From NCBI GenBank assembly GCA_037893245.1, contig JBAIAA010000013.1, positions 868,001 to 932,000 of the forward strand: a stretch of 64,000 nt of DNA, read 5' to 3'. The notes below the pieces were generated by a model that was not told the DNA's origin, ran no database searches, and saw nothing but the letters and a program-made list of their open reading frames with translations. Positions 1 through 64,000 of this stretch are shown here, piece after piece. Position 1 is the first letter of the stretch. Every line of letters starts with the position of its first letter. The position numbers were made by a program, and so were the translations under genes. Source of the stretch: Crossaster papposus. Taxonomy: Eukaryota; Echinodermata; Asteroidea; Velatida; Solasteridae.

Positions 1-2
1 GA

Positions 3-74
3 GGCATGGTGGCGCAGTGGAAGCTTGCTGGGCCTATAACCCAGAGTGCCGAGCATCAAAACCTCGTTCTGCTG
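3..74 (+). pseudogene. Type-a iMet-like tRNA, first copy, anticodon UAU
   Basis: First complete module in the window. The anticodon loop reads CCTATAA, giving UAU instead of CAU. In this copy the downstream T-run is broken (AAGTTGTTGG), so the usual Pol III stop after type a is missing. Confidence 0.7.
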
Positions 75-403
75 CTAATAAGTTGTTGGTATGACTTGAA
101 GTACTCGACTCAGAGTGACAAAGTAGACCCTTTCTTGGTCAGTAACCGAGAGTTCGGATGATCACAACCTCGATCTGCTCAGGATAATTTTGTATTTGAT
201 AGGGATTTCATTTTCATTAAAAATAGTTACGCAGAGTAGTGCAGCGGGAGCGTGATGGGCCCATAGCCCAGAGGTCCGAGGACCAAAACCTCGCTTTGCT
301 AACTAGGTATTTTTGCTTCACTGCTATTCACATTTAATAAATATTGTAGAATGTTTTTAGAATGTCTGCTTTCATTTTGTTTGCATTTTCTAAATTTACA
401 TGA

Positions 404-475
404 GGCATAGTGGCGCAGTTGAAGCGTGCTGGGCCCATAATCCAAAGGTCCGAGGATCGAAACCTCGCTCTGCTA
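404..475 (+). tRNA. Type-d iMet(CAU)-like tRNA, copy 1
   Basis: Two anticodon-stem changes: C39 to T (G-U pair) and G43 to A, which breaks the 27-43 pair. Followed by e-f-a-b-c; next d is 802 bp on. Confidence 0.55.
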
Positions 476-1205
476 ACAAGTTTTTGGTATGACATGAGGT
501 ACTCGACTCGGAGTGACAAAGTAGACACTTTCTTGGTCAGTACCCGAGAGTTTGGTTGACCACAACCTCGGTCTGCTCAGGATAATTATTTCCTTGAAAG
601 TGATTTCATTTTCATTACAAATAGTTACGCAGAGTGGTGCAGTGGGAAGCGTGATGGGACCATAACCCAGAGGCCCGAGGACCGAAACCTCGCTCTGCTA
701 AAGAGGTATTTTTGCTTCACTGTTATTCAAATTTAATAATTATTTTAGAATGTTTTTAGAATGTCTGCTTTTATTTTGTTTGTTGTTTTTCTAAATTTAC
801 ATGAGGCATGGTGGCGCAGTGGAAGCTTGCTGGGCCTATAACCCAGAGTGCCGAGGATCAAAACCTCGTTCTGCTGTTAATAAATTTTTGGTATGACTTG
901 AAGTACTCGACTCAGAGTGACAAAGTAGACCCTTTCTTGGTCAGTAACCGAGAGTTCGGATGATCACAACCTCGATCTGCTCAGGATAATTTTGTATTTG
1001 ATAGGGATTTCATTTTCATTAAAAATAGTTACGCAGAGTAGTGCAGCGGGAGCGTGATGGGCCCATAGCCCAGAGGTCCGAGGACCAAAACATCGCTTTG
1101 CTAACTAGGTATTTTTGCTTCACTGCTATTGACATTTAATAAATATTATAGAATGTTTTTAGAATGTCTGCTTTCATTTTGTTTGCATTTTCTAAATTTA
1201 CATGA

Positions 1206-1277
1206 GGCATAGTGGCGCAGTTGAAGCGTGCTAGGCCCATAACCCAGAGGTCCGAGGATCGAAACCTCGCTCTGCTA
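1206..1277 (+). tRNA. Type-d iMet(CAU)-like tRNA, copy 2
   Basis: G29 is A, breaking one of the three initiator G:C pairs of the anticodon stem. Followed by e-f-e-f and then directly by d, 623 bp on; a-b-c are missing. Confidence 0.5.
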
Positions 1278-1828
1278 ACAAGTTTTTGGTATGACATGAG
1301 GTACTCGACTCGGAGTGACAAAGTAGACACTTTCTTGGTCAGTACCCGAGAGTTTGGTTGACCACAACCTCGGTCTGCTCAGGATAATTATTTCCTTGAA
1401 AGTGATTTTATTTTCATTACAAATAATTACGCAGAGTGGTGCAGTGGGAAGCGTGATGGGCCCATAACCCAGAGGCCCGAGGACCGAAACCTCGCTCTGC
1501 TAACAAGTTTTTGGTATGACATGAGGTACTCGACTCGGAGTGCCAAAGTAGACACTTTCTTGGTCAGTACCCGAGAGTTTGGTTGACCACAACCTCAGTC
1601 TGCTCAGGATAATTATTTCCTTGAAAGTGATTTCATTTTCATTACAAATAGTTACGCAGAGTGGTGCAGTGGGAAGCGTGATGGGCCCATTACCCAGAGG
1701 CCCGAGGACCGAAACCTCGCTCTGCTAAAAGGTATTTTTGCTTCACTGTTATTCAAATTTAATAATTATTTTAGAATGTTTTTAGAATGTCTGCTTTAAT
1801 TTTGTTTGCATTTTCTAAATTTACATGA

Positions 1829-1900
1829 GGCATAGTGGCGCAGTTGAAGCGTGCTGGGCCCATAACCCAGAGGTCCGAGGATCGAAACCTCGCTCTGCTA
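1829..1900 (+). tRNA. Type-d iMet(CAU)-like tRNA, copy 3
   Basis: Consensus body, but its upstream spacer begins as the f-to-a type and switches to the c-to-d type. Next d 801 bp on; the intervening f lacks the extra D-loop A. Confidence 0.6.
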
Positions 1901-2629
1901 ACAAGTTTTTGGTATGACTTGAAGTACTCGACTCGGAGTGACAAAGTAGACACTTTCTTGGTCAGTACCCGAGAGTTTGGTTGACCACAACCTCGGTCTG
2001 CTCAGGATAATTATTTTCTTGAAAGTGATTTCATTTTCATTACAAATAGTTACGCAGAGTGGTGCCGTGGGAGCGTGATGGGCCCATAACCCAGAGGCCC
2101 GAGGACCGAAACCTCGCTCTGCTAAAGAGGTATTTTTGCTTCACTGTTATTCAAATTTAATAATTATTTTAGAATGTTTTTAGAATGTCTGCTTTTATTT
2201 TGTTTGTTGTTTTTCTAAATTTACATGAGGCATGGTGGCGCAGTGGAAGCTTGCTGGGCCTATAACCCAGAGTGCCGAGGATCAAAACCTCGTTCTGCTG
2301 CTAATAAGTTTTTGGTATGACTTGAAGTACTCGACTCAGAGTGACAAAGTAGACCCTTTCTTGGTCAGTAACCGAGAGTTCGGATGATCACAACCTCGGT
2401 CTGCTCAGGATAATTTTGTATTTGATAGGGATTTCATTTTCATTAAAAATAGTTACGCAGAGTAGTGCAGCGGGAGCGTGATGGGCCCATAGCCCAGAGG
2501 TCCGAGGACCAAAACCTCGCTTTGCTAACTAGGTATTTTTGCTTCACTGCTATTCACATTTAATAAATATTGTAGAATGTTTTCAGAATGTCTGCTTTCA
2601 TTTTGTTTGCATTTTCTAAATTTACATGA

Positions 2630-2701
2630 GGCATAGTGGCGCAGTTGAAGCGTGCTAGGCCCATAACCCAGAGGTCCGAGGATCGAAACCTCGCTCTGCT
2701 A
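2630..2701 (+). tRNA. Type-d iMet(CAU)-like tRNA, copy 4
   Basis: Carries A29 in the anticodon stem, shared with copies 2, 5 and 6, so these four descend from one variant. Next d 1026 bp on. Confidence 0.5.
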
Positions 2702-3655
2702 ACAAGTTTTTGGTATGACATGAGGTACTCGACTCGGAGTGACAAAGTAGACACTTTCTTGGTCAGTACCCGAGAGTTTGGTTGACCACAACCTCGGTCT
2801 GCTCAGGATAATTATTTCCTTGAAAGTGATTTTATTTTCATTACAAATAATTACGCAGAGTGGTGCAGTGGGAAGCGTGATGGGCCCATAACCCAGAGGC
2901 CCGAGGACCGAAACCTCGCTCTGCTAACAAGTTTTTGGTATGACATGAGGTACTCGACTCGGAGTGACAAAGTAGACACTTTCTTGGTCAGTACCCGAGA
3001 GTTTGGTTGACCACAACCTCAGTCTGCTCAGGATAATTATTTCCTTGAAAGTGATTTCATTTTCATTACAAATAGTTACGCAGAGTGGTGCAGTGGGAAG
3101 CGTGATGGGCCCATTACCCAGAGGCCCGAGGACCGAAACCTCGCTCTGCTAAAAGGTATTTTTGCTTCACTGTTATTCAAATTTAATAATTATTTTAGAA
3201 TGTTTTTAGAATGTCTGCTTTTATTTTGTTTGTTGTTTTTCTAAATTTACATGAGGCATGGTGGCGCAGTGGAAGCTTGCTGGGCCTATAACCCAGAGTG
3301 CCGAGGATCAAAACCTCGTTCTGCTGCTAATAAGTTTTTGGTATGACTTGAAGTACTCGACTCAGAGTGACAAAGTAGACCCTTTCTTGGTCAGTAACCG
3401 AGAGTTCGGATGATCACAACCTCGGTCTGCTCAGGATAATTTTGTATTTGATAGGGATTTCATTTTCATTAAAAATAGTTACGCAGAGTAGTGCAGCGGG
3501 AGCGTGATGGGCCCATAGCCCAGAGGTCCGTGGACCAAAACCTCGCTTTGCTAACTAGGTATTTTTGCTTCACTGCTATTGACATTTAATAAATATTATA
3601 GAATGTTTTTAGAATGTCTGCTTTCATTTTGTTTGCATTTTCTAAATTTACATGA

Positions 3656-3727
3656 GGCATAGTGGCGCAGTTGAAGCGTGCTAGGCCCATAACCCAGAGG
3701 TCCGAGGATCGAAACCTCGCTCTGCTA
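3656..3727 (+). tRNA. Type-d iMet(CAU)-like tRNA, copy 5
   Basis: A29 variant. Followed by three e-f pairs then a-b-c; next d 1251 bp on. Confidence 0.5.
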
Positions 3728-4906
3728 ACAAGTTTTTGGTATGACATGAGGTACTCGACTCGGAGTGACAAAGTAGACACTTTCTTGGTCAGTACCCGAG
3801 AGTTTGGTTGACCACAACCTCGGTCTGCTCAGGATAATTATTTCCTTGAAAGTGATTTTATTTTCATTACAAATAATTACGCAGAGTGGTGCAGTGGGAA
3901 GCGTGATGGGCCCATAACCCAGAGGCCCGAGGACCGAAACCTCGCTCTGCTAACAAGTTTTTGGTATGACATGAGGTACTCGACTCGGAGTGACAAAGTA
4001 GACACTTTCTTGGTCAGTACCCGAGAGTTTGGTTGACCACAACCTCGGTCTGCTCAGGATAATTATTTCCTTGAAAGTGATTTTATTTTCATTACAAATA
4101 ATTACGCAGAGTGGTGCAGTGGGAAGCGTGATGGGCCCATAACCCAGAGGCCCGAGGACCGAAACCTCGCTCTGCTAACAAGTTTTTGGTATGACATGAG
4201 GTACTCGACTCGGAGTGACAAAGTAGACACTTTCTTGGTCAGTACCCGAGAGTTTGGTTGACCACAACCTCAGTCTGCTCAGGATAATTATTTCCTTGAA
4301 AGTGATTTCATTTTCATTACAAATAGTTACGCAGAGTGGTGCAGTGGGAAGCGTGATGGGCCCATTACCCAGAGGCCCGAGGACCGAAACCTCGCTCTGC
4401 TAAAAGGTATTTTTGCTTCACTGTTATTCAAATTTAATAATTATTTTAGAATGTTTTTAGAATGTCTGCTTTTATTTTGTTTGTTGTTTTTCTAAATTTA
4501 CATGAGGCATGGTGGCGCAGTGGAAGCTTGCTGGGCCTATAACCCAGAGTGCCGAGGATCAAAACCTCGTTCTGCTGCTAATAAGTTTTTGGTATGACTT
4601 GAAGTACTCGACTCAGAGTGACAAAGTAGACCCTTTCTTGGTCAGTAACCGAGAGTTCGGATGATCACAACCTCGGTCTGCTCAGGATAATTTTGTATTT
4701 GATAGGGATTTCATTTTCATTAAAAATAGTTACGCAGAGTAGTGCAGCGGGAGCGTGATGGGCCCATAGCCCAGAGGTCCGTGGACCAAAACCTCGCTTT
4801 GCTAACTAGGTATTTTTGCTTCACTGCTATTGACATTTAATAAATATTATAGAATGTTTTTAGAATGTCTGCTTTCATTTTGTTTGCATTTTCTAAATTT
4901 ACATGA

Positions 4907-4978
4907 GGCATAGTGGCGCAGTTGAAGCGTGCTAGGCCCATAACCCAGAGGTCCGAGGATCGAAACCTCGCTCTGCTA
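4907..4978 (+). tRNA. Type-d iMet(CAU)-like tRNA, copy 6
   Basis: A29 variant. The segment from copy 5 to here is essentially repeated from here to copy 7 (1251 bp each). Confidence 0.5.
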
Positions 4979-6157
4979 ACAAGTTTTTGGTATGACATGA
5001 GGTACTCGACTCGGAGTGACAAAGTAGACACTTTCTTGGTCAGTACCCGAGAGTTTGGTTGACCACAACCTCGGTCTGCTCAGGATAATTATTTCCTTGA
5101 AAGTGATTTTATTTTCATTACAAATAATTACGCAGAGTGGTGCAGTGGGAAGCGTGATGGGCCCATAACCCAGAGGCCCGAGGACCGAAACCTCGCTCTG
5201 CTAACAAGTTTTTGGTATGACATGAGGTACTCGACTCGGAGTGACAAAGTAGACACTTTCTTGGTCAGTACCCGAGAGTTTGGTTGACCACAACCTCGGT
5301 CTGCTCAGGATAATTATTTCCTTGAAAGTGATTTTATTTTCATTACAAATAATTACGCAGAGTGGTGCAGTGGGAAGCGTGATGGGCCCATAACCCAGAG
5401 GCCCGAGGACCGAAACCTCGCTCTGCTAACAAGTTTTTGGTATGACATGAGGTACTCGACTCGGAGTGACAAAGTAGACACTTTCTTGGTCAGTACCCGA
5501 GAGTTTGGTTGACCACAACCTCAGTCTGCTCAGGATAATTATTTCCTTGAAAGTGATTTCATTTTCATTACAAATAGTTACGCAGAGTGGTGCAGTGGGA
5601 AGCGTGATGGGCCCATTACCCAGAGGCCCGAGGACCGAAACCTCGCTCTGCTAAAAGGTATTTTTGCTTCACTGTTATTCAAATTTAATAATTATTTTAG
5701 AATGTTTTTAGAATGTCTGCTTTTATTTTGTTTGTTGTTTTTCTAAATTTACATGAGGCATGGTGGCGCAGTGGAAGCTTGCTGGGCCTATAACCCAGAG
5801 TGCCGAGGATCAAAACCTCGTTCTGCTGCTAATAAGTTTTTGGTATGACTTGAAGTACTCGACTCAGAGTGACAAAGTAGACCCTTTCTTGGTCAGTAAC
5901 CGAGAGTTCGGATGATCACAACCTCGGTCTGCTCAGGATAATTTTGTATTTGATAGGGATTTCATTTTCATTAAAAATAGTTACGCAGAGTAGTGCAGCG
6001 GGAGCGTGATGGGCCCATAGCCCAGAGGTCCGAGGACCAAAACCTCGCTTTGCTAACTAGGTATTTTTGCTTCACTGCTATTCACATTTAATAAATATTG
6101 TAGAATGTTTTTAGAATGTCTGCTTTCATTTTGTTTGCATTTTCTAAATTTACATGA

Positions 6158-6229
6158 GGCATAGTGGCGCAGTTGAAGCGTGCTGGGCCCATAACCCAGA
6201 GGTCCGAGGATCGAAACCTCGCTCTGCTA
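6158..6229 (+). tRNA. Type-d iMet(CAU)-like tRNA, copy 7
   Basis: Consensus body with T5 after it. The next e module has CTCGG instead of CTTGG, making its anticodon stem fully Watson-Crick. Next d 1026 bp on. Confidence 0.6.
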
Positions 6230-7183
6230 ACAAGTTTTTGGTATGACATGAGGTACTCGACTCGGAGTGACAAAGTAGACACTTTCTCGGTCAGTACCCG
6301 AGAGTTTGGTTGACCACAACCTCGGTCTGCTCAGGATAATTATTTCCTTGAAAGTGATTTTATTTTTATTACAAATAGTTACGCAGAGTGGTGCAGTGGG
6401 AAGCGTGATGGGCCCATAACCCAGAGGCCCGAGGACCGAAACCTCGCTCTGCTAACAAGTTTTTGGTATGACATGAGGTACTCGACTCGGAGTGACAAAG
6501 TAGACACTTTCTTGGTCAGTACCCGAGAGTTTGGTTGACCACAACCTCAGTCTGCTCAGGATAATTATTTCCTTGAAAGTGATTTCATTTTCATTACAAA
6601 TAGTTACGCAGAGTGGTGCAGTGGGAAGCGTGATGGACCCATTACCCAGAGGCCCGAGGACCGAAACCTCGCTCTGCTAAAAGGTATTTTTGCTTCACTG
6701 TTATTCAAATTTAATAATTATTTTAGAATGTTTTTAGAATGTCTGCTTTTATTTTGTTTGTTGTTTTTCTAAATTTACATGAGGCATGGTGGCGCAGTGG
6801 AAGCTTGCTGGGCCTATAACCCAGAGTGCCGAGGATCAAAACCTCGTTCTGCTGCTAATAAGTTTTTGGTATGACTTGAAGTACTCGACTCAGAGTGACA
6901 AAGTAGACCCTTTCTTGGTCAGTAACCGAGAGTTCGGATGATCACAACCTCGGTCTGCTCAGGATAATTTTGTATTTGATAGGGATTTCATTTTCATTAA
7001 AAATAGTTACGCAGAGTAGTGCAGCGGCAGCGTGATGGGCCCATAGCCCAGAGGTCCGAGGACCAAAACCTCGCTTTGCTAACTAGGTATGTTTGCTTCA
7101 CTGCTATTCACATTTAATAAATATTGTAGAATGTTTTTAGAATGTCTGCTTTCATTTTGTTTGCATTTTCTAAATTTACATGA

Positions 7184-7255
7184 GGCATAGTGGCGCAGTT
7201 GAAGCGTGCTGGGCCCATAACCCAGAGGTCCGAGGATCGAAACCTCGCTCTGCTA
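7184..7255 (+). tRNA. Type-d iMet(CAU)-like tRNA, copy 8
   Basis: Consensus body; trailer reads AACACG before the T5 run. Next d-type start 802 bp on. Confidence 0.6.
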
Positions 7256-7985
7256 ACACGTTTTTGGTATGACATGAGGTACTCGACTCGGAGTGACAAA
7301 GTAGACACTTTCTCGGTCAGTACCCGAGAGTTTGGATGACCACAACCTCGGTCTGCTCAGGATAATTATTTCCTTGAAAGTGATTTTATTTTCATTACAA
7401 ATAGTTACGCAGAGTGGTGCAGTGGGAAGCGTGATGGGCCCATAACCCAGAGGCCCGAGGACCGAAACCTCGCTCTGCTAAAAGGTATTTTTGCTTCACT
7501 GTTATTCAAATTTAATAATTATTTTAGAATGTTTTTAGAATGTCTGCTTTTATTTTGTTTGTTGTTTTTCTAAATTTACATGAGGCATGGTGGCGCAGTG
7601 GAAGCTTGCTGGGCCTATAACCCAGAGTGCCGAGGATCAAAACCTCGTTCTGCTGCTAATAAGTTTTTGGTATGACTTGAAGTACTCGACTCAGAGTGAC
7701 AATGTATACCCTTTCTTGGTCAGTAACCGAGGGTTTGGATGATCACAACCTCGGTCTGCTCAGGATAATTTTGTATTTGATAGGGATTTCATTTTCATTA
7801 AAAATAGTTACGCAGAGTAGTGCAGCGGGAGCGTGATGGGCCCATAGCCCAGAGGTCCGAGGACCAAAACCTCGCTTTGCTAAGTAGGTATTTTTGCTTC
7901 ACTGCTATTCACATTTAATAAATATTGTAGAATGTTTTTAGAATGTCTGCTTTTTATTTTGTTTGCATTTTCTAAATTTACATGA

Positions 7986-8057
7986 GGCATAGTGGCGCAG
8001 TTGAAGCGTGCTGGGCCCATAACCCAGAGGCCCGAGGACCGAAACCTCGCTCTGCTA
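7986..8057 (+). tRNA. d/f chimeric iMet(CAU)-like tRNA, copy 9
   Basis: The 5' part (acceptor, D arm, anticodon stem) is type d; from the variable loop onward (AGGCCCGAGGACCG) it is type f, followed by the f trailer and T5. Then a-b-c; next d 578 bp on (e and f of this unit are missing). Confidence 0.6.
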
Positions 8058-8563
8058 AAGAGGTATTTTTGCTTCACTGTTATTCAAATTTAATAATTAT
8101 TTTAGAATGTTTTTAGAATGTCTGCTTTTATTTTGTTTGTTGTTTTTCTAAATTTACATGAGGCATGGTGGCGCAGTGGAAGCTTGCTGGGCCTATAACC
8201 CAGAGTGCCGAGGATCAAAACCTCGTTTTGCTACTAATAAGTTTTTGGTATGACTTGAAGTACTCGACTCAGAGTGACAAAGTAGACCCTTTCTTGGTCA
8301 GTAACCGAGAGTTCGGATGATCACAACCTCGGTCTGCTCAGGATAATGTTGTATTTGATAGGGATTTCATTTTCATTAAAAATAGTTACGCACAGTAGTG
8401 CAGCGGGAGCGTGATGGGCCCATAGCCCAGAGGTCCGAGGACCAAAACCTCGCTTTGCTAACTAGGTATTTTTGCTTCACTGCTATTCACATTTAATAAA
8501 TATTGTAGAATGTTTTTAGAATGTCTGCTTTTTATTTTGTTTGCATTTTCTAAATTTACATGA

Positions 8564-8635
8564 GGCATAGTGGCGCAGTTGAAGCGTGCTGGGCCCATAA
8601 CCCAGAGGTCCGAGGATCGAAACCTCGCTCTGCTA
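8564..8635 (+). tRNA. Type-d iMet(CAU)-like tRNA, copy 10
   Basis: Body consensus, but the T5 run is broken to GTGTTTGG, leaving only three T. Next d 801 bp on. Confidence 0.5.
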
Positions 8636-9364
8636 ACAAGTGTTTGGTATGACATGAGGTACTCGACTCGGAGTGACAAAGTAGACACTTTCTTGGTCAG
8701 TACCCGAGAGTTTGGTTGACCACAACCTCAGTCTGCTCAGGATAATTATTTCCTTGAAAGTGATTTCATTTTCATTACAAATAGTTACGCAGAGTGGTGC
8801 AGTGGGAAGCGTGATGGGCCCATTACCCAGAGGCCCGAGGACCGAAACCTCGCTCTGCTAAAAGGTATTTTTGCTTCACTGTTATTCAAATTTAATAATT
8901 ATTTTAGAATGTTTTTAGAATGTCTGCTTTTATTTTGTTTGTTGTTTTTCTAAATTTACATGAGGCATGGTGGCGCAGTGGAAGCTTGCTGGGCCTATAA
9001 CCCAGAGTGCCGAGGATCAAAACCTCGTTCTGCTGCTAATAAGTTTTTGGTATGACTTGAAGTACTCGACTCAGAGTGACAAAGTAGACCCTTTCTTGGT
9101 CAGTAACCGAGAGTTCGGATGATCACAACCTCGGTCTGCTCAGGATAATTTTGTATTTGATAGGGATTTCATTTTCATTAAAAATAGTTACGCAGAGTAG
9201 TGCAGCGGGAGCGTGATGGGCCCATAGCCCAGAGGTCCGAGGACCAAAACCTCGCTTTGCTAACTAGGTATTTTTGCTTCACTGCTATTCACATTTAATA
9301 AATATTGTAGAATGTTTTTAGAATGTCTGCTTTCATTTTGTTTGCATTTTCTAAATTTACATGA

Positions 9365-9436
9365 GGCATAGTGGCGCAGTTGAAGCGTGCTGGGCCCATA
9401 ACCCAGAGGTCCGAGGATCGAAACCTCGCTCTGCTA
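9365..9436 (+). tRNA. Type-d iMet(CAU)-like tRNA, copy 11
   Basis: Consensus body; the 3,207-bp duplicate of copy 7. Next d 1026 bp on via e-f-e-f-a-b-c. Confidence 0.6.
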
Positions 9437-10390
9437 ACAAGTTTTTGGTATGACATGAGGTACTCGACTCGGAGTGACAAAGTAGACACTTTCTCGGTCA
9501 GTACCCGAGAGTTTGGTTGACCACAACCTCGGTCTGCTCAGGATAATTATTTCCTTGAAAGTGATTTTATTTTTATTACAAATAGTTACGCAGAGTGGTG
9601 CAGTGGGAAGCGTGATGGGCCCATAACCCAGAGGCCCGAGGACCGAAACCTCGCTCTGCTAACAAGTTTTTGGTATGACATGAGGTACTCGACTCGGAGT
9701 GACAAAGTAGACACTTTCTTGGTCAGTACCCGAGAGTTTGGTTGACCACAACCTCAGTCTGCTCAGGATAATTATTTCCTTGAAAGTGATTTCATTTTCA
9801 TTACAAATAGTTACGCAGAGTGGTGCAGTGGGAAGCGTGATGGACCCATTACCCAGAGGCCCGAGGACCGAAACCTCGCTCTGCTAAAAGGTATTTTTGC
9901 TTCACTGTTATTCAAATTTAATAATTATTTTAGAATGTTTTTAGAATGTCTGCTTTTATTTTGTTTGTTGTTTTTCTAAATTTACATGAGGCATGGTGGC
10001 GCAGTGGAAGCTTGCTGGGCCTATAACCCAGAGTGCCGAGGATCAAAACCTCGTTCTGCTGCTAATAAGTTTTTGGTATGACTTGAAGTACTCGACTCAG
10101 AGTGACAAAGTAGACCCTTTCTTGGTCAGTAACCGAGAGTTCGGATGATCACAACCTCGGTCTGCTCAGGATAATTTTGTATTTGATAGGGATTTCATTT
10201 TCATTAAAAATAGTTACGCAGAGTAGTGCAGCGGCAGCGTGATGGGCCCATAGCCCAGAGGTCCGAGGACCAAAACCTCGCTTTGCTAACTAGGTATGTT
10301 TGCTTCACTGCTATTCACATTTAATAAATATTGTAGAATGTTTTTAGAATGTCTGCTTTCATTTTGTTTGCATTTTCTAAATTTACATGA

Positions 10391-10462
10391 GGCATAGTGG
10401 CGCAGTTGAAGCGTGCTGGGCCCATAACCCAGAGGTCCGAGGATCGAAACCTCGCTCTGCTA
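10391..10462 (+). tRNA. Type-d iMet(CAU)-like tRNA, copy 12
   Basis: Duplicate of copy 8, with the same AACACG trailer. Next d-type start 802 bp on. Confidence 0.6.
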
Positions 10463-11192
10463 ACACGTTTTTGGTATGACATGAGGTACTCGACTCGGAG
10501 TGACAAAGTAGACACTTTCTCGGTCAGTACCCGAGAGTTTGGATGACCACAACCTCGGTCTGCTCAGGATAATTATTTCCTTGAAAGTGATTTTATTTTC
10601 ATTACAAATAGTTACGCAGAGTGGTGCAGTGGGAAGCGTGATGGGCCCATAACCCAGAGGCCCGAGGACCGAAACCTCGCTCTGCTAAAAGGTATTTTTG
10701 CTTCACTGTTATTCAAATTTAATAATTATTTTAGAATGTTTTTAGAATGTCTGCTTTTATTTTGTTTGTTGTTTTTCTAAATTTACATGAGGCATGGTGG
10801 CGCAGTGGAAGCTTGCTGGGCCTATAACCCAGAGTGCCGAGGATCAAAACCTCGTTCTGCTGCTAATAAGTTTTTGGTATGACTTGAAGTACTCGACTCA
10901 GAGTGACAAAGTATACCCTTTCTTGGTCAGTAACCGAGGGTTTGGATGATCACAACCTCGGTCTGCTCAGGATAATTTTGTATTTGATAGGGATTTCATT
11001 TTCATTAAAAATAGTTACGCAGAGTAGTGCAGCGGGAGCGTGATGGGCCCATAGCCCAGAGGTCCGAGGACCAAAACCTCGCTTTGCTAAGTAGGTATTT
11101 TTGCTTCACTGCTATTCACATTTAATAAATATTGTAGAATGTTTTTAGAATGTCTGCTTTTTATTTTGTTTGCATTTTCTAAATTTACATGA

Positions 11193-52198: not shown

Positions 52199-53104
52199 AC
52201 AAGTTTTTGGTATGACATGAGGTACTCGACTCGGAGTGACAAAGTAGACACTTTCTTGGTCAGTACCCGAGAGTTTGGTTGACCACAACCTCGGTCTGCT
52301 CAGGATAATAATTTTCTTGAAAGTGATTTCATTTTCATTACAAATAGTTACGCAGAGTGGTGCAGTGGGAAGCGTGATGGGCCCATAAACCAGAGGCCCG
52401 AGGACCGAAACCTCGCTCTGCTAAAGAGGTATTTTTGCTTCACTGTTATTCAAATTTAATAATTATTTTAGAATGTTTTTAGAATGTCTGCTTTTATTTT
52501 GTTTGTTGTTTTTCTAAATTTACATGAGGCATGGTGGCGCAGTGGAAGCTTGTTGGGCCTATAACCCAGAGGCCCGAGGACCGAAACCTCGCTCTGCTAA
52601 AGAGGTATTTTTGCTTCACTGTTATTCAAATTTAATAATTATTTTAGAATGTTTTTAGAATGTCTGCTTTTATTTTGTTTGTTGTTTTTCTAAATTTACA
52701 TGAGGCATGGTGGCGCAGTGGAAGCTTGCTGGGCCTATAACCCAGAGTGCCGAGGATCAAAACCTCGTTCTGCTGCTAATAAGTTTTTGGTATGACTTGA
52801 AGTACTCGACTCAGAGTGACAAAGTAGACCCTTTCTTGGTCAGTAACCGAGAGTTCGGATGATCACAACCTCGGTCTGCTCAGGATAATTTTGTATTTGA
52901 TAGGAATTTCATTTTCATTAAAAATAGTTACGCAGAGTAGTGCAGCGGGAGCGTGATGGGCCCATAGCCCAGAGGTCCGAGGACCAAAACCTCGCTTTGC
53001 TAACTAGGTATGTTTGCTTCACTGCTATTCACATTTAATAAATATTGTAGAATGTTTTTAGAATGTCTGCTTTCATTTTGTTTGCATTTTCTAAATTTAC
53101 ATGA

Positions 53105-53176
53105 GGCATAGTGGCGCAGTTGAAGCGTGCTGGGCCCATAACCCAGAGGTCCGAGGATCGAAACCTCGCTCTGCTA
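53105..53176 (+). tRNA. Type-d iMet(CAU)-like tRNA, copy 64
   Basis: Consensus body. The c upstream has its T-run reduced (GTATGTTTGC). Next d 801 bp on. Confidence 0.6.
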
Positions 53177-53905
53177 ACAAGTTTTTGGTATGACATGAGG
53201 TACTCGACTCGGAGTGACAAAGTAGACACTTTCTTGGTCAGTACCCGAGAGTTTGGTTGACCACAACCTCGGTCTGCTCAAGATAATTATTTTCTTGAAA
53301 GTGATTTCATTTTCATTACAAATAGTTACGCAGAGTGGTGCAGTGGGAGCGTGATGGGCCCATAACCCAGAGGCCCGAGGACCGAAACCTCGCTCTGCTA
53401 AAGAGGTATTTTTGCTTCACTGTTATTCAAATTTAATAATTAGTTTAGAATGTTTTTAGAATGTCTGCTTTTATTTTGTTTGTTGTTTTTTTAAATTTAC
53501 ATGAGGCATGGTGGCGCAGTGGAAGCTTGCTGGGCCTATAACCCAGATTGCCGAGGATCAAAACTTCGTTCTGCTGCTAATAAGTTGTTGGTATGACTTG
53601 AAGTACTCGACTCAGAGTGACAAAGTAGACCCTTTCTTGGTCAGTAACCGAGAGTTCGGATGATCACAACCTCGGTCTGCTCAGGATAATTTTGTATTTG
53701 ATAGGGATTTCATTTTCATTAAAAATAGTTACGCAGAGTAGTGCAGCGGGAGCGTGATGGGCCCATAGCCCAGAGGTCCGAGGACCAAAACCTCGCTTTG
53801 CTAACTAGGTATTTTTGCTTCACTGCTATTCACATTTAATAAATATTTGAGAATGTTTTTAGAATGTCTGCTTTCATTTTGTTTGCATTTTCTAAATTTA
53901 CATGA

Positions 53906-53977
53906 GGCATAGTGGCGCAGTTGAAGCGTGCTGGGCCCATAACCCAGAGGTCGGAGGATAGAAACCTTGCTCTGCTA
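53906..53977 (+). tRNA. Type-d iMet(CAU)-like tRNA, copy 65
   Basis: Three T-arm changes: C49 to G, C56 to A (ATAGAAA) and C64 to T; box B and the T stem are damaged. Next d 801 bp on. Confidence 0.4.
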
Positions 53978-54706
53978 ACAAGTTTTTGGTATGACATGAG
54001 GTACTCGACTCGGAGTGACAAAGTAGACACTTTCTTGGTCAGTACCCGAGAGTTTGGTTGACCACAACCTCGGTCTGCTCAGAATAATTATTTACTTGAA
54101 AGTGATTTCATTTTCATTACAAATAGTTACGCAGAGTGGTGCAGTGGGAGCGTGATGGGCCCATAACCCAGAGGCCCGAGGACCGAAACCTCGCTCTGCT
54201 AAAGAGGTATTTTTGCTTCACTGTTATTCAAATTCAATAATTATTTCAGAATGTTTTTAGAATGTCTGCTTTTATTTTGTTTGTTGTTTTTCTAAATTTA
54301 CATGAGGCATGGTGGCGCAGTGGAAGCTTGCTGGGCCTATAACCCAGAGTGCCGAGGATCAAAACCTCGTTCTGCTGCTAATAAGTTTTTGGTATGACTT
54401 GAAGTACTCGACTCAGAGTGACAAAGTAGACCCTTTCTTGGTCAGTAACCGAGAGTTCGGATGATCACAACCTCGGTCTGCTCAGAATAATTTTGTATTT
54501 GATAGGAATTTCATTTTCATTAAAAATAGTTACGCAGAGTAGTGCAGCGGGAGCGTGATGGGCCCATAGCCCAGAGGTCCGAGGACCAAAACCTCGCTTT
54601 GCTAACTAGGTATTTTTGCTTCACTGCTATTCACATTTAATAAATATTGTAGAATGTTTTTAGAATGTCTGCTTTCATTTTGTTTGCATTTTCAAAATTT
54701 ACATGA

Positions 54707-54778
54707 GGCATAGTGGCGCAGTTGAAGCGTGCTGGGCCCATAACCCAGAGGTTCGAGGATCGAAACCTCGCTCTGCTA
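54707..54778 (+). tRNA. Type-d iMet(CAU)-like tRNA, copy 66
   Basis: Variable-loop C48 is T (AGGTTCGAGG), otherwise intact; 5' spacer TTTTCAAAAT. Next d 978 bp on. Confidence 0.55.
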
Positions 54779-55684
54779 ACAAGTTTTTGGTATGACATGA
54801 GGTACTCGACTCGGAGTGACAAAGTAGACACTTTCTTGGTCAGTACCCGAGAGTTTGGTTGACCACAACCTCGGTCTGCTCAGGATAATTATTTCCTTGA
54901 AAGTGATTTCATTTTCATTACAAATAGTTACGCAGAGTGGTGCAGTGGGAAGCGTGATGGGCCCATAAACCAGAGGCCCGAGGACCGAAACCTCGCTCTG
55001 CTAAAGAGGTATTTTTGCTTCACTGTTATTCAAATTTAATAATTATTTTAGAATGTTTTTAGAATGTCTGCTTTTATTTTGTTTGTTGTTTTTCTAAATT
55101 TACATGAGGCATGGTGGCGCAGTGGAAGCTTGCTGGGCCTATAACCCAGAGGCCCGAGGACCAAAACCTCGCTCTGCTAAAGAGGTATTTTTGCTTCACT
55201 GTTATTCAAATTTAATAATTATTTTAGAATGTTTTTAGAATGTCTGCTTTTATTTTGTTTGTTGTTTTTCTAAATTTACATGAGGCATGGTGGCGCAGTG
55301 GAAGCTTGCTGGGCCTATAACCCAGAGTGCCGAGGATCAAAACCTCGTTCTGCTGCTAATACGTTTTTGGTATGACTTGAAGTACTCGACTCAGAGTGAC
55401 AAAGTAGACCCTTTCTTGGTCAGTAACCGAGAGTTCGGATGATCACAACCTCGGTCTGCTCAGAATAATTTTGTATTTGATAGGAATTTCATTTTCATTA
55501 AAAATAGTTACGCAGAGTAGTGCAGCGGGAGCGTGATGGGCCCATAGCCCAGAGGTCCGAGGACCAAAACCTCGCTTTGCTAACTAGGTATTTTTGCTTC
55601 ACTGCTATTCACATTTAATAAATATTGTAGAATGTTTTTAGAATGTCTGCTTTCATTTTGTTTGCATTTTCTAAATTTACATGA

Positions 55685-55756
55685 GGCCTAGTGGCGCAGT
55701 TGAAGCGTGCTGGGCCCATAACCCAGAGGTCCGAGGATCGAAACCTCGCTCTGCTA
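55685..55756 (+). tRNA. Type-d iMet(CAU)-like tRNA, copy 67
   Basis: A4 to C (GGCCTAG), the same change as copy 31 far to the left. Next d 977 bp on. Confidence 0.5.
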
Positions 55757-56661
55757 ACAAGTTTTTGGTATGACATGAGGTACTCGACTCGGAGTGACAA
55801 AGTAGACACTTTCTTGGTCAGTACCCGAGAGTTTGGTTGACCACAACCTCGGTCTGCTCAGGATAATTATTTTCTTGAAAGTGATTTCATTTTCATTACA
55901 AATAGTTACGCAGAGTGGTGCAGTGGGAGCGTGATGGGCCCATAACCCAGAGGCCCGAGGACCGAAACCTCGCTCTGCTAAAGAGGTATTTTTGCTTCAC
56001 TGTTATTCAAATTTAATAATTATTTTAGAATGTTTTTAGAATGTCTGCTTTTATTTTGTTTGTTGTTTTTCTAAATTTACATGAGGCATGGTGGCGCAGT
56101 GGAAGCTTGTTGGGCCTATAACCCAGAGGCCCGAGGACCGAAACCTCGCTCTGCTAAAGAGGTATTTTTGCTTCACTGTTATTCAAATTTAATAATTATT
56201 TTAGAATGTTTTTAGAATGTCTGCTTTTATTTTGTTTGTTGTTTTTCTAAATTTACATGAGGCATGGTGGCGCAGTGGAAGCTTGCTGGGCCTATAACCC
56301 AGAGTGCCGAGGATCAAAACCTCGTTCTGCTGCTAATAAGTTTTTGGTATGACTTGAAGTACTCGACTCAGAGTGACAAAGTAGACCCTTTCTTGGTCAG
56401 TAACCGAGAGTTCGGATGATCACAACCTCGGTCTGCTCAGGATAATTTTGTATTTGATAGGAATTTCATTTTCATTAAAAATAGTTACGCAGAGTAGTGC
56501 AGCGGGAGCGTGATGGGCCCATAGCCCAGAGGTCCGAGGACCAAAACCTCGCTTTGCTAACTAGGTATGTTTGCTTCACTGCTATTCACATTTAATAAAT
56601 ATTGTAGAATGTTTTTAGAATGTCTGCTTTCATTTTGTTTGCATTTTCTAAATTTACATGA

Positions 56662-56733
56662 GGCATAGTGGCGCAGTTGAAGCGTGCTGGGCCCATAACC
56701 CAGAGGTCCGAGGATCGAAACCTCGCTCTGCTA
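56662..56733 (+). tRNA. Type-d iMet(CAU)-like tRNA, copy 68
   Basis: Consensus body; 3,557-bp duplicate of copy 64. Next d 801 bp on. Confidence 0.6.
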
Positions 56734-57462
56734 ACAAGTTTTTGGTATGACATGAGGTACTCGACTCGGAGTGACAAAGTAGACACTTTCTTGGTCAGTA
56801 CCCGAGAGTTTGGTTGACCACAACCTCGGTCTGCTCAAGATAATTATTTTCTTGAAAGTGATTTCATTTTCATTACAAATAGTTACGCAGAGTGGTGCAG
56901 TGGGAGCGTGATGGGCCCATAACCCAGAGGCCCGAGGACCGAAACCTCGCTCTGCTAAAGAGGTATTTTTGCTTCACTGTTATTCAAATTTAATAATTAG
57001 TTTAGAATGTTTTTAGAATGTCTGCTTTTATTTTGTTTGTTGTTTTTTTAAATTTACATGAGGCATGGTGGCGCAGTGGAAGCTTGCTGGGCCTATAACC
57101 CAGATTGCCGAGGATCAAAACTTCGTTCTGCTGCTAATAAGTTGTTGGTATGACTTGAAGTACTCGACTCAGAGTGACAAAGTAGACCCTTTCTTGGTCA
57201 GTAACCGAGAGTTCGGATGATCACAACCTCGGTCTGCTCAGGATAATTTTGTATTTGATAGGGATTTCATTTTCATTAAAAATAGTTACGCAGAGTAGTG
57301 CAGCGGGAGCGTGATGGGCCCATAGCCCAGAGGTCCGAGGACCAAAACCTCGCTTTGCTAACTAGGTATTTTTGCTTCACTGCTATTCACATTTAATAAA
57401 TATTTGAGAATGTTTTTAGAATGTCTGCTTTCATTTTGTTTGCATTTTCTAAATTTACATGA

Positions 57463-57534
57463 GGCATAGTGGCGCAGTTGAAGCGTGCTGGGCCCATAAC
57501 CCAGAGGTCGGAGGATAGAAACCTTGCTCTGCTA
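57463..57534 (+). tRNA. Type-d iMet(CAU)-like tRNA, copy 69
   Basis: Duplicate of copy 65 with all three T-arm changes. Next d 801 bp on. Confidence 0.4.
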
Positions 57535-58263
57535 ACAAGTTTTTGGTATGACATGAGGTACTCGACTCGGAGTGACAAAGTAGACACTTTCTTGGTCAGT
57601 ACCCGAGAGTTTGGTTGACCACAACCTCGGTCTGCTCAGAATAATTATTTACTTGAAAGTGATTTCATTTTCATTACAAATAGTTACGCAGAGTGGTGCA
57701 GTGGGAGCGTGATGGGCCCATAACCCAGAGGCCCGAGGACCGAAACCTCGCTCTGCTAAAGAGGTATTTTTGCTTCACTGTTATTCAAATTCAATAATTA
57801 TTTCAGAATGTTTTTAGAATGTCTGCTTTTATTTTGTTTGTTGTTTTTCTAAATTTACATGAGGCATGGTGGCGCAGTGGAAGCTTGCTGGGCCTATAAC
57901 CCAGAGTGCCGAGGATCAAAACCTCGTTCTGCTGCTAATAAGTTTTTGGTATGACTTGAAGTACTCGACTCAGAGTGACAAAGTAGACCCTTTCTTGGTC
58001 AGTAACCGAGAGTTCGGATGATCACAACCTCGGTCTGCTCAGAATAATTTTGTATTTGATAGGAATTTCATTTTCATTAAAAATAGTTACGCAGAGTAGT
58101 GCAGCGGGAGCGTGATGGGCCCATAGCCCAGAGGTCCGAGGACCAAAACCTCGCTTTGCTAACTAGGTATTTTTGCTTCACTGCTATTCACATTTAATAA
58201 ATATTGTAGAATGTTTTTAGAATGTCTGCTTTCATTTTGTTTGCATTTTCAAAATTTACATGA

Positions 58264-58335
58264 GGCATAGTGGCGCAGTTGAAGCGTGCTGGGCCCATAA
58301 CCCAGAGGTTCGAGGATCGAAACCTCGCTCTGCTA
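58264..58335 (+). tRNA. Type-d iMet(CAU)-like tRNA, copy 70
   Basis: Duplicate of copy 66 (T48). Next d 978 bp on. Confidence 0.55.
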
Positions 58336-59241
58336 ACAAGTTTTTGGTATGACATGAGGTACTCGACTCGGAGTGACAAAGTAGACACTTTCTTGGTCAG
58401 TACCCGAGAGTTTGGTTGACCACAACCTCGGTCTGCTCAGGATAATTATTTCCTTGAAAGTGATTTCATTTTCATTACAAATAGTTACGCAGAGTGGTGC
58501 AGTGGGAAGCGTGATGGGCCCATAAACCAGAGGCCCGAGGACCGAAACCTCGCTCTGCTAAAGAGGTATTTTTGCTTCACTGTTATTCAAATTTAATAAT
58601 TATTTTAGAATGTTTTTAGAATGTCTGCTTTTATTTTGTTTGTTGTTTTTCTAAATTTACATGAGGCATGGTGGCGCAGTGGAAGCTTGCTGGGCCTATA
58701 ACCCAGAGGCCCGAGGACCAAAACCTCGCTCTGCTAAAGAGGTATTTTTGCTTCACTGTTATTCAAATTTAATAATTATTTTAGAATGTTTTTAGAATGT
58801 CTGCTTTTATTTTGTTTGTTGTTTTTCTAAATTTACATGAGGCATGGTGGCGCAGTGGAAGCTTGCTGGGCCTATAACCCAGAGTGCCGAGGATCAAAAC
58901 CTCGTTCTGCTGCTAATACGTTTTTGGTATGACTTGAAGTACTCGACTCAGAGTGACAAAGTAGACCCTTTCTTGGTCAGTAACCGAGAGTTCGGATGAT
59001 CACAACCTCGGTCTGCTCAGAATAATTTTGTATTTGATAGGAATTTCATTTTCATTAAAAATAGTTACGCAGAGTAGTGCAGCGGGAGCGTGATGGGCCC
59101 ATAGCCCAGAGGTCCGAGGACCAAAACCTCGCTTTGCTAACTAGGTATTTTTGCTTCACTGCTATTCACATTTAATAAATATTGTAGAATGTTTTTAGAA
59201 TGTCTGCTTTCATTTTGTTTGCATTTTCAAAATTTACATGA

Positions 59242-59313
59242 GGCATAGTGGCGCAGTTGAAGCGTGCTGGGCCCATAACCCAGAGGTTCGAGGATCGAAA
59301 CCTCGCTCTGCTA
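59242..59313 (+). tRNA. Type-d iMet(CAU)-like tRNA, copy 71
   Basis: Same T48 allele and same CAAAAT spacer as copy 70, from a 978-bp tandem duplication. Next d 978 bp on. Confidence 0.55.
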
Positions 59314-60219
59314 ACAAGTTTTTGGTATGACATGAGGTACTCGACTCGGAGTGACAAAGTAGACACTTTCTTGGTCAGTACCCGAGAGTTTGGTTGACCA
59401 CAACCTCGGTCTGCTCAGGATAATTATTTCCTTGAAAGTGATTTCATTTTCATTACAAATAGTTACGCAGAGTGGTGCAGTGGGAAGCGTGATGGGCCCA
59501 TAAACCAGAGGCCCGAGGACCGAAACCTCGCTCTGCTAAAGAGGTATTTTTGCTTCACTGTTATTCAAATTTAATAATTATTTTAGAATGTTTTTAGAAT
59601 GTCTGCTTTTATTTTGTTTGTTGTTTTTCTAAATTTACATGAGGCATGGTGGCGCAGTGGAAGCTTGCTGGGCCTATAACCCAGAGGCCCGAGGACCAAA
59701 ACCTCGCTCTGCTAAAGAGGTATTTTTGCTTCACTGTTATTCAAATTTAATAATTATTTTAGAATGTTTTTAGAATGTCTGCTTTTATTTTGTTTGTTGT
59801 TTTTCTAAATTTACATGAGGCATGGTGGCGCAGTGGAAGCTTGCTGGGCCTATAACCCAGAGTGCCGAGGATCAAAACCTCGTTCTGCTGCTAATACGTT
59901 TTTGGTATGACTTGAAGTACTCGACTCAGAGTGACAAAGTAGACCCTTTCTTGGTCAGTAACCGAGAGTTCGGATGATCACAACCTCGGTCTGCTCAGAA
60001 TAATTTTGTATTTGATAGGAATTTCATTTTCATTAAAAATAGTTACGCAGAGTAGTGCAGCGGGAGCGTGATGGGCCCATAGCCCAGAGGTCCGAGGACC
60101 AAAACCTCGCTTTGCTAACTAGGTATTTTTGCTTCACTGCTATTCACATTTAATAAATATTGTAGAATGTTTTTAGAATGTCTGCTTTCATTTTGTTTGC
60201 ATTTTCTAAATTTACATGA

Positions 60220-60291
60220 GGCCTAGTGGCGCAGTTGAAGCGTGCTGGGCCCATAACCCAGAGGTCCAAGGATCGAAACCTCGCTCTGCTA
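60220..60291 (+). tRNA. Type-d iMet(CAU)-like tRNA, copy 72
   Basis: GGCCTAG acceptor plus G50 to A in the T stem. Next d 801 bp on. Confidence 0.45.
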
Positions 60292-61020
60292 ACAAGTTTT
60301 TGGTATGACATGAGGTACTCGACTCGGAGTGACAAAGTAGACACTTTCTTGGTCAGTACCCGAGAGTTTGGTTGACCACAACCTCGGTCTGCTCAGGATA
60401 ATTATTTTCTTGAAAGTGATTTCATTTTCATTACAAATAGTTACGCAGAGTGGTGCAGTGGGAGCGTGATGGGCCCATAACCCAGAGGCCCGAGGACCGA
60501 AACCTCGCTCTGCTAAAGAGGTATTTTTGCTTCACTGTTATTCAAATTTAATAATTAGTTTAGAATGTTTTTAGAATGTCTGCTTTTATTTTGTTTGTTG
60601 TTTTTCTAAATTTACATGAGGCATGGTGGCGCATTGGAAGCTTGCTGGGCCTATAACCCAGATTGCCGAGGATCAAAACCTCGTTCTGCTGCTAATAAGT
60701 TGTTGGTATGACTTGAAGTACTCGACTCAGAGTGACAAAGTAGACCCTTTCTTGGTCAGTAACCGAGAGTTCGGATGATCACAACCTCGGTCTGCTCAGG
60801 ATAATTTTGTATTTGATAGGGATTTCATTTTCATTAAAAATAGTTACGCAGAGTAGTGCAGCGGGAGCGTGATGGGCCCATAGCCCAGAGGTCCGAGGAC
60901 CAAAACCTCGCTTTGCTAACTAGGTATTTTTGCTTCACTGCTATTCACATTTAATAAATATTTGAGAATGTTTTTAAAATGTCTGCTTTCATTTTGTTTG
61001 CATTTTCTAAATTTACATGA

Positions 61021-61092
61021 GGCATAGTGGCGCAGTTGAAGCGTGCTGGGCCCATAACCCAGAGGTCCGAGGATAGAAACCTCGCTCTGCTA
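61021..61092 (+). tRNA. Type-d iMet(CAU)-like tRNA, copy 73
   Basis: C56 to A in the T loop, but the stem is intact, unlike copies 65 and 69. The preceding a has GCGCATTGG. Next d 801 bp on. Confidence 0.45.
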
Positions 61093-61821
61093 ACAAGTTT
61101 TTGGTATGACATGAGGTACTCGACTCGGAGTGACAAAGTAGACACTTTCTTGGTCAGTACCCGAGAGTTTGGTTGACCACAACCTCGGTCTGCTCAGGAT
61201 AATTATTTTCTTGAAAGTGATTTCATTTTCATTACAAATACTTACGCAGAGTGGTGCAGTGGGAGCGTGATGGGCCCATAACCCAGAGGCCCGAGGACCG
61301 AAACCTCGCTCTGCTAAAGAGGTATTTTTGCTTCACTGTTATTCAAATTTAATAATTAGTTTAGAATGTTTTTAGAATGTCTGCTTTTATTTTGTTTGTT
61401 GTTTTTCTAAATTTACATGAGGCATGGTGGCGCATTGGAAGCTTGCTGGGCCTATAACCCAGATTGCCGAGGATCAAAACCTCGTTCTGCTGCTAATAAG
61501 TTGTTGGTATGACTTGAAGTACTCGACTCAGAGTGACAAAGTAGACCCTTTCTTGGTCAGTAACCGAGAGTTCGGATGATCACAACCTCGGTCTGCTCAG
61601 GATAATTTTGTATTTGATAGGGATTTCATTTTCATTAAAAATAGTTACGCAAAGTAGTGCAGCGGGAGCGTGATGGGCCCATAGCCCAGAGGTCCTAGGA
61701 CCAAAACCTCGCTTTGCTAACTAGGTATTTTTGCTTCACTGCTATTCACATTTAATAAATATTTGAGAATGTTTTTAAAATGTCTGCTTTCATTTTGTTT
61801 GCATTTTCTAAATTTACATGA

Positions 61822-61893
61822 GGCATAGTGGCGCAGTTGAAGCGTGCTGGGCCCATAACCCAGAGGTCCGAGGATAGAAACCTCGCTCTGCTA
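61822..61893 (+). tRNA. Type-d iMet(CAU)-like tRNA, copy 74
   Basis: Near-identical 801-bp tandem duplicate of copy 73, including GCGCATTGG in its a. Followed by e, f and an a/f chimera, then d; 574 bp on. Confidence 0.45.
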
Positions 61894-62395
61894 ACAAGTT
61901 TTTGGTATGACATGAGGTACTCGACTCGGAGTGACAAAGTAGACACTTTCTTGGTCAGTACCCGAGAGTTTGGTTGACCACAACCTCGGTCTGCTCAGGA
62001 TAATTATTTTCTTGAAAGTGATTTCATTTTCATTACAAATAGTTACGCAGAGTGGTGCAGTGGGAGCGTGATGGGCCCATAACCCAGAGGCCCGAGGACC
62101 GAAACCTCGCTCTGCTAAAGAGGTATTTTTGCTTCACTGTTATTCAAATTTAATAATTAGTTTAGAATGTTTTTAGAATGTCTGCTTTTATTTTGTTTGT
62201 TGTTTTTCTAAATTTACATGAGGCATGGTGGCGCAGTGGAAGCTTGCTGGGCCTATAACCCAGAGGCCCGAGGACCGAAACCTCGCTCTGCTAAAGAGGT
62301 ATTTTTGCTTCACTGCTATTCACATTTAATAATTATTGTAAAATGTTTTTAGAATGTCTGCTTTCATTTTGTTTGCATTTTCTAAATTTACATGA

Positions 62396-62467
62396 GGCAT
62401 AGTGGCGCAGTTGAAGCGTGCTGGGCCCATAACCCAGAGGTCCGAGGATCGAAACCTCGCTCTGCTA
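62396..62467 (+). tRNA. Type-d iMet(CAU)-like tRNA, copy 75
   Basis: Consensus body; reached from an a/f chimera whose trailer switches to the c-to-d spacer. Next d 801 bp on. Confidence 0.6.
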
Positions 62468-63196
62468 ACAAGTTTTTGGTATGACATGAGGTACTCGACT
62501 CGGAGTGACAAAGTAGACACTTTCGTGGTCAGTACCCGAGAGTTTGGTTGACCACAACCTCGGTCTGCTCAGGATAATTATTTCCTTGAAAGTGATTTCA
62601 TTTTCATTACAAATAGTTACGCAGAGTGGTGCAGTGGGAGCGTGATGGGCCCATAACCCAGAGGCCCGAGGACCGAAACCTCGCTCTGCTAAAGAGGTAT
62701 TTTTGATTCACTGTTATTCAAATTTAATAATTATTTTAGAATGTTTTTAGAATGTCTGCTTTTATTTTGTTTGTTGTTTTTCTAAATTTACATGAGGCAT
62801 GGTGGCGCAGTGGAAGCTTGCTGGGCCTATAACCCAGAGCGCCGAGGATCAAAACCTCGTTCTGCTGCTAATAACTTTTTGATATGACTTGAAGTACTCG
62901 ACTCAGAGTGACAAAGTAGACCCTTTCTTGGTCAGTAACCGAGAGTTCGGATGATCACAACCTCTGTCTGCTCAGGATAATTTTGTATTTGATAGGGATT
63001 TCATTTTCATTAAAAATAGTTACGCAGAGTAGTGCAGCGGGAGCGTGATGGGCCCATAGCCCAGAGGTCCGAGGACCAAAACCTCGCTTTGCTAACTAGG
63101 TATTTTTGCTTCACTGCTATTTACATTTAATAAATATTGTAGAATGTTTTTAGAATGTCTGCTTTCATTTTGTTTGCATTTTCTAAATTTACATGA

Positions 63197-63268
63197 GGCA
63201 TAGTGGCGCAGTTGAAGCGTGCTTGGGCCATAACCCAGAGGTCCGAGGATCGAAACCTCGCTCTGCTA
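63197..63268 (+). tRNA. Type-d iMet(CAU)-like tRNA, copy 76
   Basis: The anticodon arm reads CTTGGGCCATAACCC in place of CTGGGCCCATAACCC, a compensated insertion and deletion that keeps CAU in register but changes position 32 to G. Next d starts at 63998 and is cut by the window end. Confidence 0.45.
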
Positions 63269-64000
63269 ACAAGTTTTTGGTATGACATGAGGTACTCGAC
63301 TCGGAGTGACAAAGTAGACACTTTCTTGGTCAGTACCCGAGAGTTTGGTTGACCACAACCTCGGTCTGCTCAGGATAATTATTTCCTTGAAAGTGATTTC
63401 ATTTTCATTACAAATAGTTACGCAGAGTGGTGCAGTGGGAGCGTGATGGGCCCATAACCCAGAGGCCCGAGGACCGAAACCTCGCTCTGCTAAAGAGGTA
63501 TTTTTGCTTCACTGTTATTCAATTTTAATAATTATTTTAGAATGTTTTTAGAATGTCTGCTTTTATTTTGTTTGTTGTTTTTCTAAATTTACATAAGGCA
63601 TGGTGGCGCAGTGGAAGCTTGCTGGGCCTATAACCCAAATTGCCGAGGATCAAAACCTCGTTCTGCTGCTAATAAGTTTTTGGTATGACTAGAAGTACTC
63701 GACTCAGAGTGACAAAGTAGACCCTTTCTTGGTCAGTAACCGAGAGTTCGGATGATCACAACCTCGGTCTGCTCAGGATAATTTTGTATTTGATAGGGAT
63801 TTCATTTTCATTAAAAATAGTTACGCAGAGTAGTGCAGCGTGAGCGTGATGGGCCCATAGCCCAGAGGTCCGAGGACCAAAACCTCGCTTTGCTAACTAG
63901 GTATTTTTGCTTCACTGCTATTCACATTTAATAAATATTGTAGAATGTTTTTAGAATGTCTGCTTTCATTTTGTTTGCATTTTCTAAATTTACATGAGGC

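Follow-up and report, generated by a model that had tools for sequence, protein, structure and literature searches.

The window analyzed here, a 64,000-nucleotide stretch of Crossaster papposus DNA (contig JBAIAA010000013.1, positions 868,001 to 932,000), is largely made up of a tandem satellite, each repeat unit of which contains six decayed modules resembling initiator methionine tRNA (iMet). By jumping alignment to a consensus of 802 bp, 61,031 of the 64,000 bp belong to this satellite, with 99.1% identity to a single unit, in two blocks that flank a non-satellite insert (Table 1). A preceding analysis made from the letters of the window by themselves (the sequence-only reading) had described a tandem array of about 61 kb, and its period and direction are real. 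The strongest autocorrelation lags of the window are 802 and 801, followed by 398, 403 and 401. The satellite is oriented head-to-tail on the forward strand throughout, and no 20-mer in the whole window is common to both strands. The array continues past both edges of the window.

The 802-bp unit, which has a G+C content of about 42%, is a dimer of monomer a (402 bp) and monomer b (400 bp). Monomers of 401 bp paired into an 802-bp dimer had been proposed previously; the two-level repeat stands, but the monomer lengths are unequal and 33 shifts interrupt the 802-bp register. This architecture is that of a higher-order repeat: a divergence of 9.4% (37 of 394 aligned sites) separates monomer a from monomer b, whereas like monomers from different units differ by only about 1.5% (1.56% among 63 rows of a and 1.48% among 66 rows of b, with rows less than 95% complete omitted). 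Neighboring copies of like monomers are somewhat more similar to each other than distant ones.

Table 1. Features of the 64,000-nucleotide window (positions are those of the window).
Feature	Position	Strand	Basis or remark
Satellite array, left block	1..45005	+	Jumping alignment, 98.5-99.5% identity per aligned segment
Satellite array, right block	47972..64000	+	Jumping alignment, 98.7-99.2% identity per aligned segment
Example 802-bp unit (consensus seed)	12169..12970	+	5 bases altered at refinement
Monomer a of example unit, 402 bp	12169..12570	+	
T1a, iMet-like, anticodon changed to TAT	12171..12242	+	T5 run downstream; Rfam 35.5 bits
T2a, iMet-like, strongly decayed	12277..12348	+	
T3a, iMet-like, CAT	12398..12469	+	
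Monomer b of example unit, 400 bp	12571..12970	+	
T1b, best preserved iMet-like type, CAT	12573..12644	+	T5 run downstream; ARAGORN; Rfam 47.2 bits
T2b, iMet-like, strongly decayed	12676..12747	+	
T3b, iMet-like, D-loop with one extra base	12797..12869	+	
Zone with all eight T3b-to-T1b jumps (225-bp sub-duplications) and one of the two T1b-to-T3b jumps	1485..9644	+	
Zone with ten T1a-to-T3a deletions and three jumps that link corresponding parts of a and b	24605..43540	+	
Zone with seven T1a-to-T3b joints	49002..59676	+	Spacings near 978, 1779 and 2580
Non-satellite insert, 2,966 bp, hairpins near both ends	45006..47971		Autocorrelation, jumping alignment
Stop-to-stop frame of 383 aa containing a reverse-transcriptase domain (RVT_1)	46189..47340	-	E 4.5e-18

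Initiator tRNA-like modules of the repeat unit

Each monomer carries three iMet-like modules, T1, T2 and T3, with a spacer after each of the first two and a linker after the third. Together, the six modules of a unit occupy 422 of its 802 bp (53%). The unit is therefore not wholly tRNA, and the description of a satellite built wholly from initiator-tRNA modules has to be given up. Across the window, ARAGORN reports 46 tRNAs, comprising 45 Met(CAT) and one Ile(TAT), and 193 matches to the Rfam tRNA family reach the gathering score, with all of the 150 matches listed residing on the forward strand.

An initiator-tRNA origin, as also put forward in the sequence-only reading, is supported by direct comparisons to the human initiator tRNA. 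Identities are 62/72 for T1b, 60/72 for T3b, 58/71 for T1a and 57/72 for T3a, and by this measure T1 and T3 are clearly of the initiator type. The corresponding values for T2a and T2b are 45/72 and 42/72. When T2a and T2b were each compared with T1b, T3b and iMet, none of 2000 length-matched dinucleotide shuffles per comparison reached the observed score in any of the six comparisons. A cruder test based on 300 shuffles of monomer a (maximum 32) placed T2a above this maximum with a score of 42 and T2b below it with 30. Judged from these similarities, T2 is a badly decayed module that is nonetheless homologous to initiator tRNA.

Condition of the modules as tRNA and promoter sequences

Cloverleaf scoring was conducted on the consensus modules, with positions counted along 72 bases. 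None of the six forms a faultless initiator cloverleaf, since each carries at least one stem mismatch, and none begins with A, such that an intact cloverleaf combined with the A1-U72 pair of initiators is absent. Consensus T1b comes closest, with 20 of 21 stem pairs (including two G-T pairs) and a single mismatch at 5:67, and its position 1 is G rather than A and the first G of its D-loop GG is lost. Consensus T1a has the anticodon TAT and two stem mismatches. Both T3a and T3b have two mismatches, at 1:71 and 26:42 (the T3b count was made without its extra D-loop base), and T2a and T2b have eight and nine, respectively. At minimum energy, the six consensus modules do not fold into cloverleaf-like shapes, a result that was given no weight because no true tRNA was folded as a control.

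The internal promoter elements expected for transcription by RNA polymerase III (Pol III) are distributed unevenly among module types. An A box, a B box and a run of four T nucleotides within 25 bases were matched by 120 of the 458 modules cut out by script, a count that rests on general box patterns, with a loose A-box pattern and no shuffled control. All but one of these 120 modules are T1. By type, matches were found for 53/67 T1a, 66/75 T1b and 1/65 T3a modules, and the B-box match of T3 is kept in only one of 139 unbroken copies.

From the box matches, binding of Pol III or TFIIIC to the modules is possible. The array might accordingly be maintained as a Pol III/TFIIIC-dense chromatin element, such as a boundary, a fork barrier or a clustering site, for which the density of A and B boxes rather than the tRNA would be retained. 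Roles of tRNA genes as barriers and in fork pausing are reviewed in the portions covered of one report (PMC4041453). However, loss of the B-box match from T3, the permissive character of the box search and the lack of clear constraint on T1 and T3 (see below) speak against such maintenance, and we regard it as unlikely.

Sequence variation among copies

Functional modules would be expected to vary less than the spacers. The number of distinct variants per site is 0.317 for T1 and T3, 0.246 for T2 and 0.265 for spacers. Sites were split by base because G and C sites vary more. Among A/T sites, 20 of 114 are variable in T1 and T3 versus 47 of 280 in spacers (p 0.89); the values for G/C sites are given where the model is weighed. 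The conservation of T1 and T3 does not clearly exceed that of spacers, and hence there is no visible sign that these modules are retained as tRNA genes.

These data also bear on the idea that the array is a reserve of initiator-tRNA genes that are functional or are called upon only conditionally, similar to the mostly silenced SYY cluster of Arabidopsis. The 45 Met(CAT) calls and the nearly complete stems of consensus T1b are what such a reserve would offer. Yet T1b carries faults at 5:67, at position 1 and in its D-loop, T3a and T3b each have two stem mismatches, T1a combines two mismatches with a TAT anticodon, and there is no clear recent constraint. A tRNA function of the modules is not supported, and we consider the reserve very unlikely.

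Variants across the array are biased from G/C toward A/T, with 95 types of C-to-T or G-to-A changes versus 28 types of A-to-G or T-to-C changes. No clear excess at CpG sites, the trace that decay of methylated CpG would leave, is apparent: C-to-T changes occur at 8 of 26 CpG versus 34 of 127 other C sites, and G-to-A changes at 7 of 26 CpG versus 46 of 160 other G sites.

Register shifts and their joints

The 33 interruptions of the 802-bp register comprise 31 direct jumps of eight types and two shifts with one or two unaligned bases at the joint. Of the latter, the first is in the linker (unit position 770 to 374) and the second leads from T1a to T3a (45 to 275). Thirty of the 31 direct jumps join module to module. 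Counted as types, seven of the eight direct joints lie in modules, compared with the 53% module share of the unit (p 0.048).

The three commonest joint types are each confined to a single zone of the array: T1a/T3a with ten occurrences, T3b/T1b with eight and T1a/T3b with seven. The T1b/T3b joint occurs twice, at 8,012 and 11,219. A further four jumps, each found singly, link corresponding parts of a and b (at 19,948, 33,924, 35,720 and 36,282). Recurrence of one joint type inside a zone is best read as a single event followed by local amplification.

Long exact repeats are also present. One of 3,282 bp recurs at a lag of 3,557 (52390-55671 and 55947-59228), which suggests either that the segment was duplicated very recently or that it was misassembled, and a second is 2,267 bp long. 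Because repeats of this kind are mishandled by assemblers, an assembly artefact might have inflated or scrambled a shorter real array. Most monomer rows, however, are unique (52 of 63 for a and 51 of 66 for b), and the clustering of the commonest joints in zones is likewise at odds with scrambling. We give this scenario only a slim chance.

A model for the origin and growth of the array

The array has several repeat layers, chimeric modules and highly homogeneous units, and its T1 and T3 modules show no clear constraint. We consider it reasonably probable that it is a tandem satellite derived from initiator-tRNA genes, whose present evolution is that of non-coding repeats and whose growth relies on unequal exchange or slippage. 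A selfish satellite had been one of several options offered by the sequence-only reading, and it fits best among them. We infer an ancestral cluster of initiator-tRNA genes and the following direction of events. An initiator-tRNA gene would have given rise to three modules within about 400 bp, of which T2 would have decayed most. Duplication of this trimer would have produced monomers a and b, which then diverged by 9.4% before the a-b pair was amplified as the 802-bp unit, and later local amplifications would have built up larger units in separate regions of the array. Expansion would proceed via unequal exchange or replication slippage, with the modules serving as alternative registers. Because T1 and T3 remain alike, mispairing between them would yield chimeric modules and steps of 225 or 176 bp, and the local amplification expected from this model would confine the commonest joint types to one zone each.

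Several observations weigh against this model. The 30-base flanks of T1, T2 and T3 have no significant homology (12 comparisons, lowest shuffle fraction 0.082), and thus a simple tandem triplication is not demonstrated. The commonest joint, T1a/T3a, connects module positions 16 and 44, which are non-matching and share a 2-base microhomology, and therefore does not represent a simple homologous exchange. When bridged shifts are included, eight of ten joint types lie in modules, which is not significant relative to the 53% module share (p 0.076), and the joint-in-module count is weakened by the fact that exchanges between T1 and T3 could hardly occur outside of modules. Many T1 copies still carry an A box, a B box and a terminator. 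Finally, the proportion of variable G/C sites is slightly lower in T1 and T3 (70/170) than in spacers (54/100, p 0.14), and that of T2 (19/69) is also below the spacer value (p 0.012, uncorrected for four tests), which leaves room for weak constraint on the modules.

As a separate observation, the lowest variation at G/C sites is that of T2, although its decay is the most advanced (p 0.13 versus T1 and T3, uncorrected), for which tRNA function provides no explanation.

A different starting point would be a trimeric short interspersed element (SINE) of the tRNA type that became tandemly repeated. That one unit combines three tRNA modules separated by dissimilar spacers would be compatible with such an origin. 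The usual SINE head, however, is not known to consist of three full tRNA modules with separate T runs, as are present here. Satellites derived from SINEs are known, at least from the portions covered of one report (PMC10702118), and yet a SINE origin of this array seems quite unlikely to us.

With regard to what drives growth under the favored model of a non-coding satellite, one possibility, and no more than that, is that TFIIIC binds to remnants of Pol III promoters and that the resulting pausing of replication forks feeds exchange. A more far-reaching proposal would be that a natural TFIIIC/Pol III-binding satellite with more than 100 promoter-like modules in 61 kb serves the chromosome as a landmark, be it a pericentromere, a boundary or a fork barrier, and expands itself by fork pausing at the modules that bear joints. 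We judge this proposal to be distinctly improbable.

The non-satellite insert

The 2,966-bp insert is composite, and the hairpins near its two ends carry a similar 15-base motif. A reverse-transcriptase fragment on the reverse strand adjoins a TAA-rich stretch within the insert. The satellite leaves off at unit position 134 before the insert and restarts at position 610. The register is thus not recovered across the block, whose insertion was therefore not clean, and we reject the reading of these 2,966 bp as a cleanly inserted transposon.

Relationship to known repeats

Alpha-satellite higher-order repeats arise when diverged monomers are fixed as a multimeric unit that is then amplified. The array resembles them in having diverged monomers locked into an amplified multimeric unit, but differs in that its consensus lacks a CENP-B-like box: none was found within two mismatches of the CENP-B box pattern on either strand of the consensus. 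This box is absent from some centromeric satellites. The link to centromere-type repeats raised in the sequence-only reading finds no support in these searches.

Our literature search, which covered part of the literature and did not proceed by species name, recognized no initiator-tRNA satellite with a higher-order unit. Among the systems found, the nearest described kinds are the tRNA gene arrays of Entamoeba, the Arabidopsis SYY cluster, the human 1q23.3 repeat and satellites derived from SINEs, each compared here with the portions covered of the respective reports. Entamoeba arrays likewise consist of tandem, homogenized units with tRNA genes, but they hold almost all of the tRNA genes of the organism, with up to five per unit (PMC2652664), in contrast to the decayed, exclusively initiator-type modules and dimeric higher-order unit described here. 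The SYY cluster shares the tandem repetition of tRNA genes in one cluster; its tRNAs are produced in root cap cells (PMC12308677), whereas the present array is known from sequence and has faulty consensus modules. The variable number tandem repeat at human 1q23.3 is an animal tandem unit bearing tRNA, but this unit is 7.3 kb long, GC-rich and composed of less than 6% tRNA genes (PMC4041453), as opposed to 0.8 kb, about 42% and 53% tRNA-like for the array. SINE-derived satellites of reptiles have a Pol III-type source, with alternating dimeric and trimeric patterns noted, and are built from SINE pieces (PMC10702118), an origin that for the present array is only a rival to the favored model.

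Large tRNA-derived expansions are also found in cnidarians, in some of whose genomes a very large share is annotated as tRNA. If arrays like the present one belonged to such an animal, satellites of this type could be among the causes. Nematostella has more than 17,000 tRNA genes and pseudogenes, in which adjacent pairs are mostly of mixed tRNA types (PMC2888827). Among corals, 23,498 tRNA repeats spanning 5,198,251 bp are listed for Siderastrea siderea, 20,541 for Dendrogyra cylindrus and 395 for Colpophyllia natans (PMC12005156). In contrast to the array, no comparable unit is described in the portions covered of these two reports. The coral numbers in Table 2 of PMC12005156 differ by 52- to 59-fold (20,541 and 23,498 versus 395), without comment in the same portions.

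The term ‘tRNA’ does not occur in the main text of one coral fluorescence in situ hybridization paper (PMC12355185), which in the portions covered reports a centromeric probe, MA-13C. The term occurs five times in another (PMC8167085), where the places listed concern mammalian pseudogene clusters. Patterns derived from the unit had no matches in virus, bacterial and archaeal contig collections, blastn of one 802-bp unit had none in plasmid and phage collections, and the reverse-transcriptase fragment of the insert had none in a viral contig collection, although these negative results say little about animals.

Implications for the birth of satellites

Several stages of satellite birth are kept in this one sequence: tRNA-like modules, their trimer in which one member has decayed, the dimer whose halves have diverged, the 802-bp unit that was amplified, and larger units formed locally. 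The array thereby suggests a route from a tRNA gene cluster to a layered satellite, and it offers a system for asking whether tRNA-like promoters promote tandem expansion.

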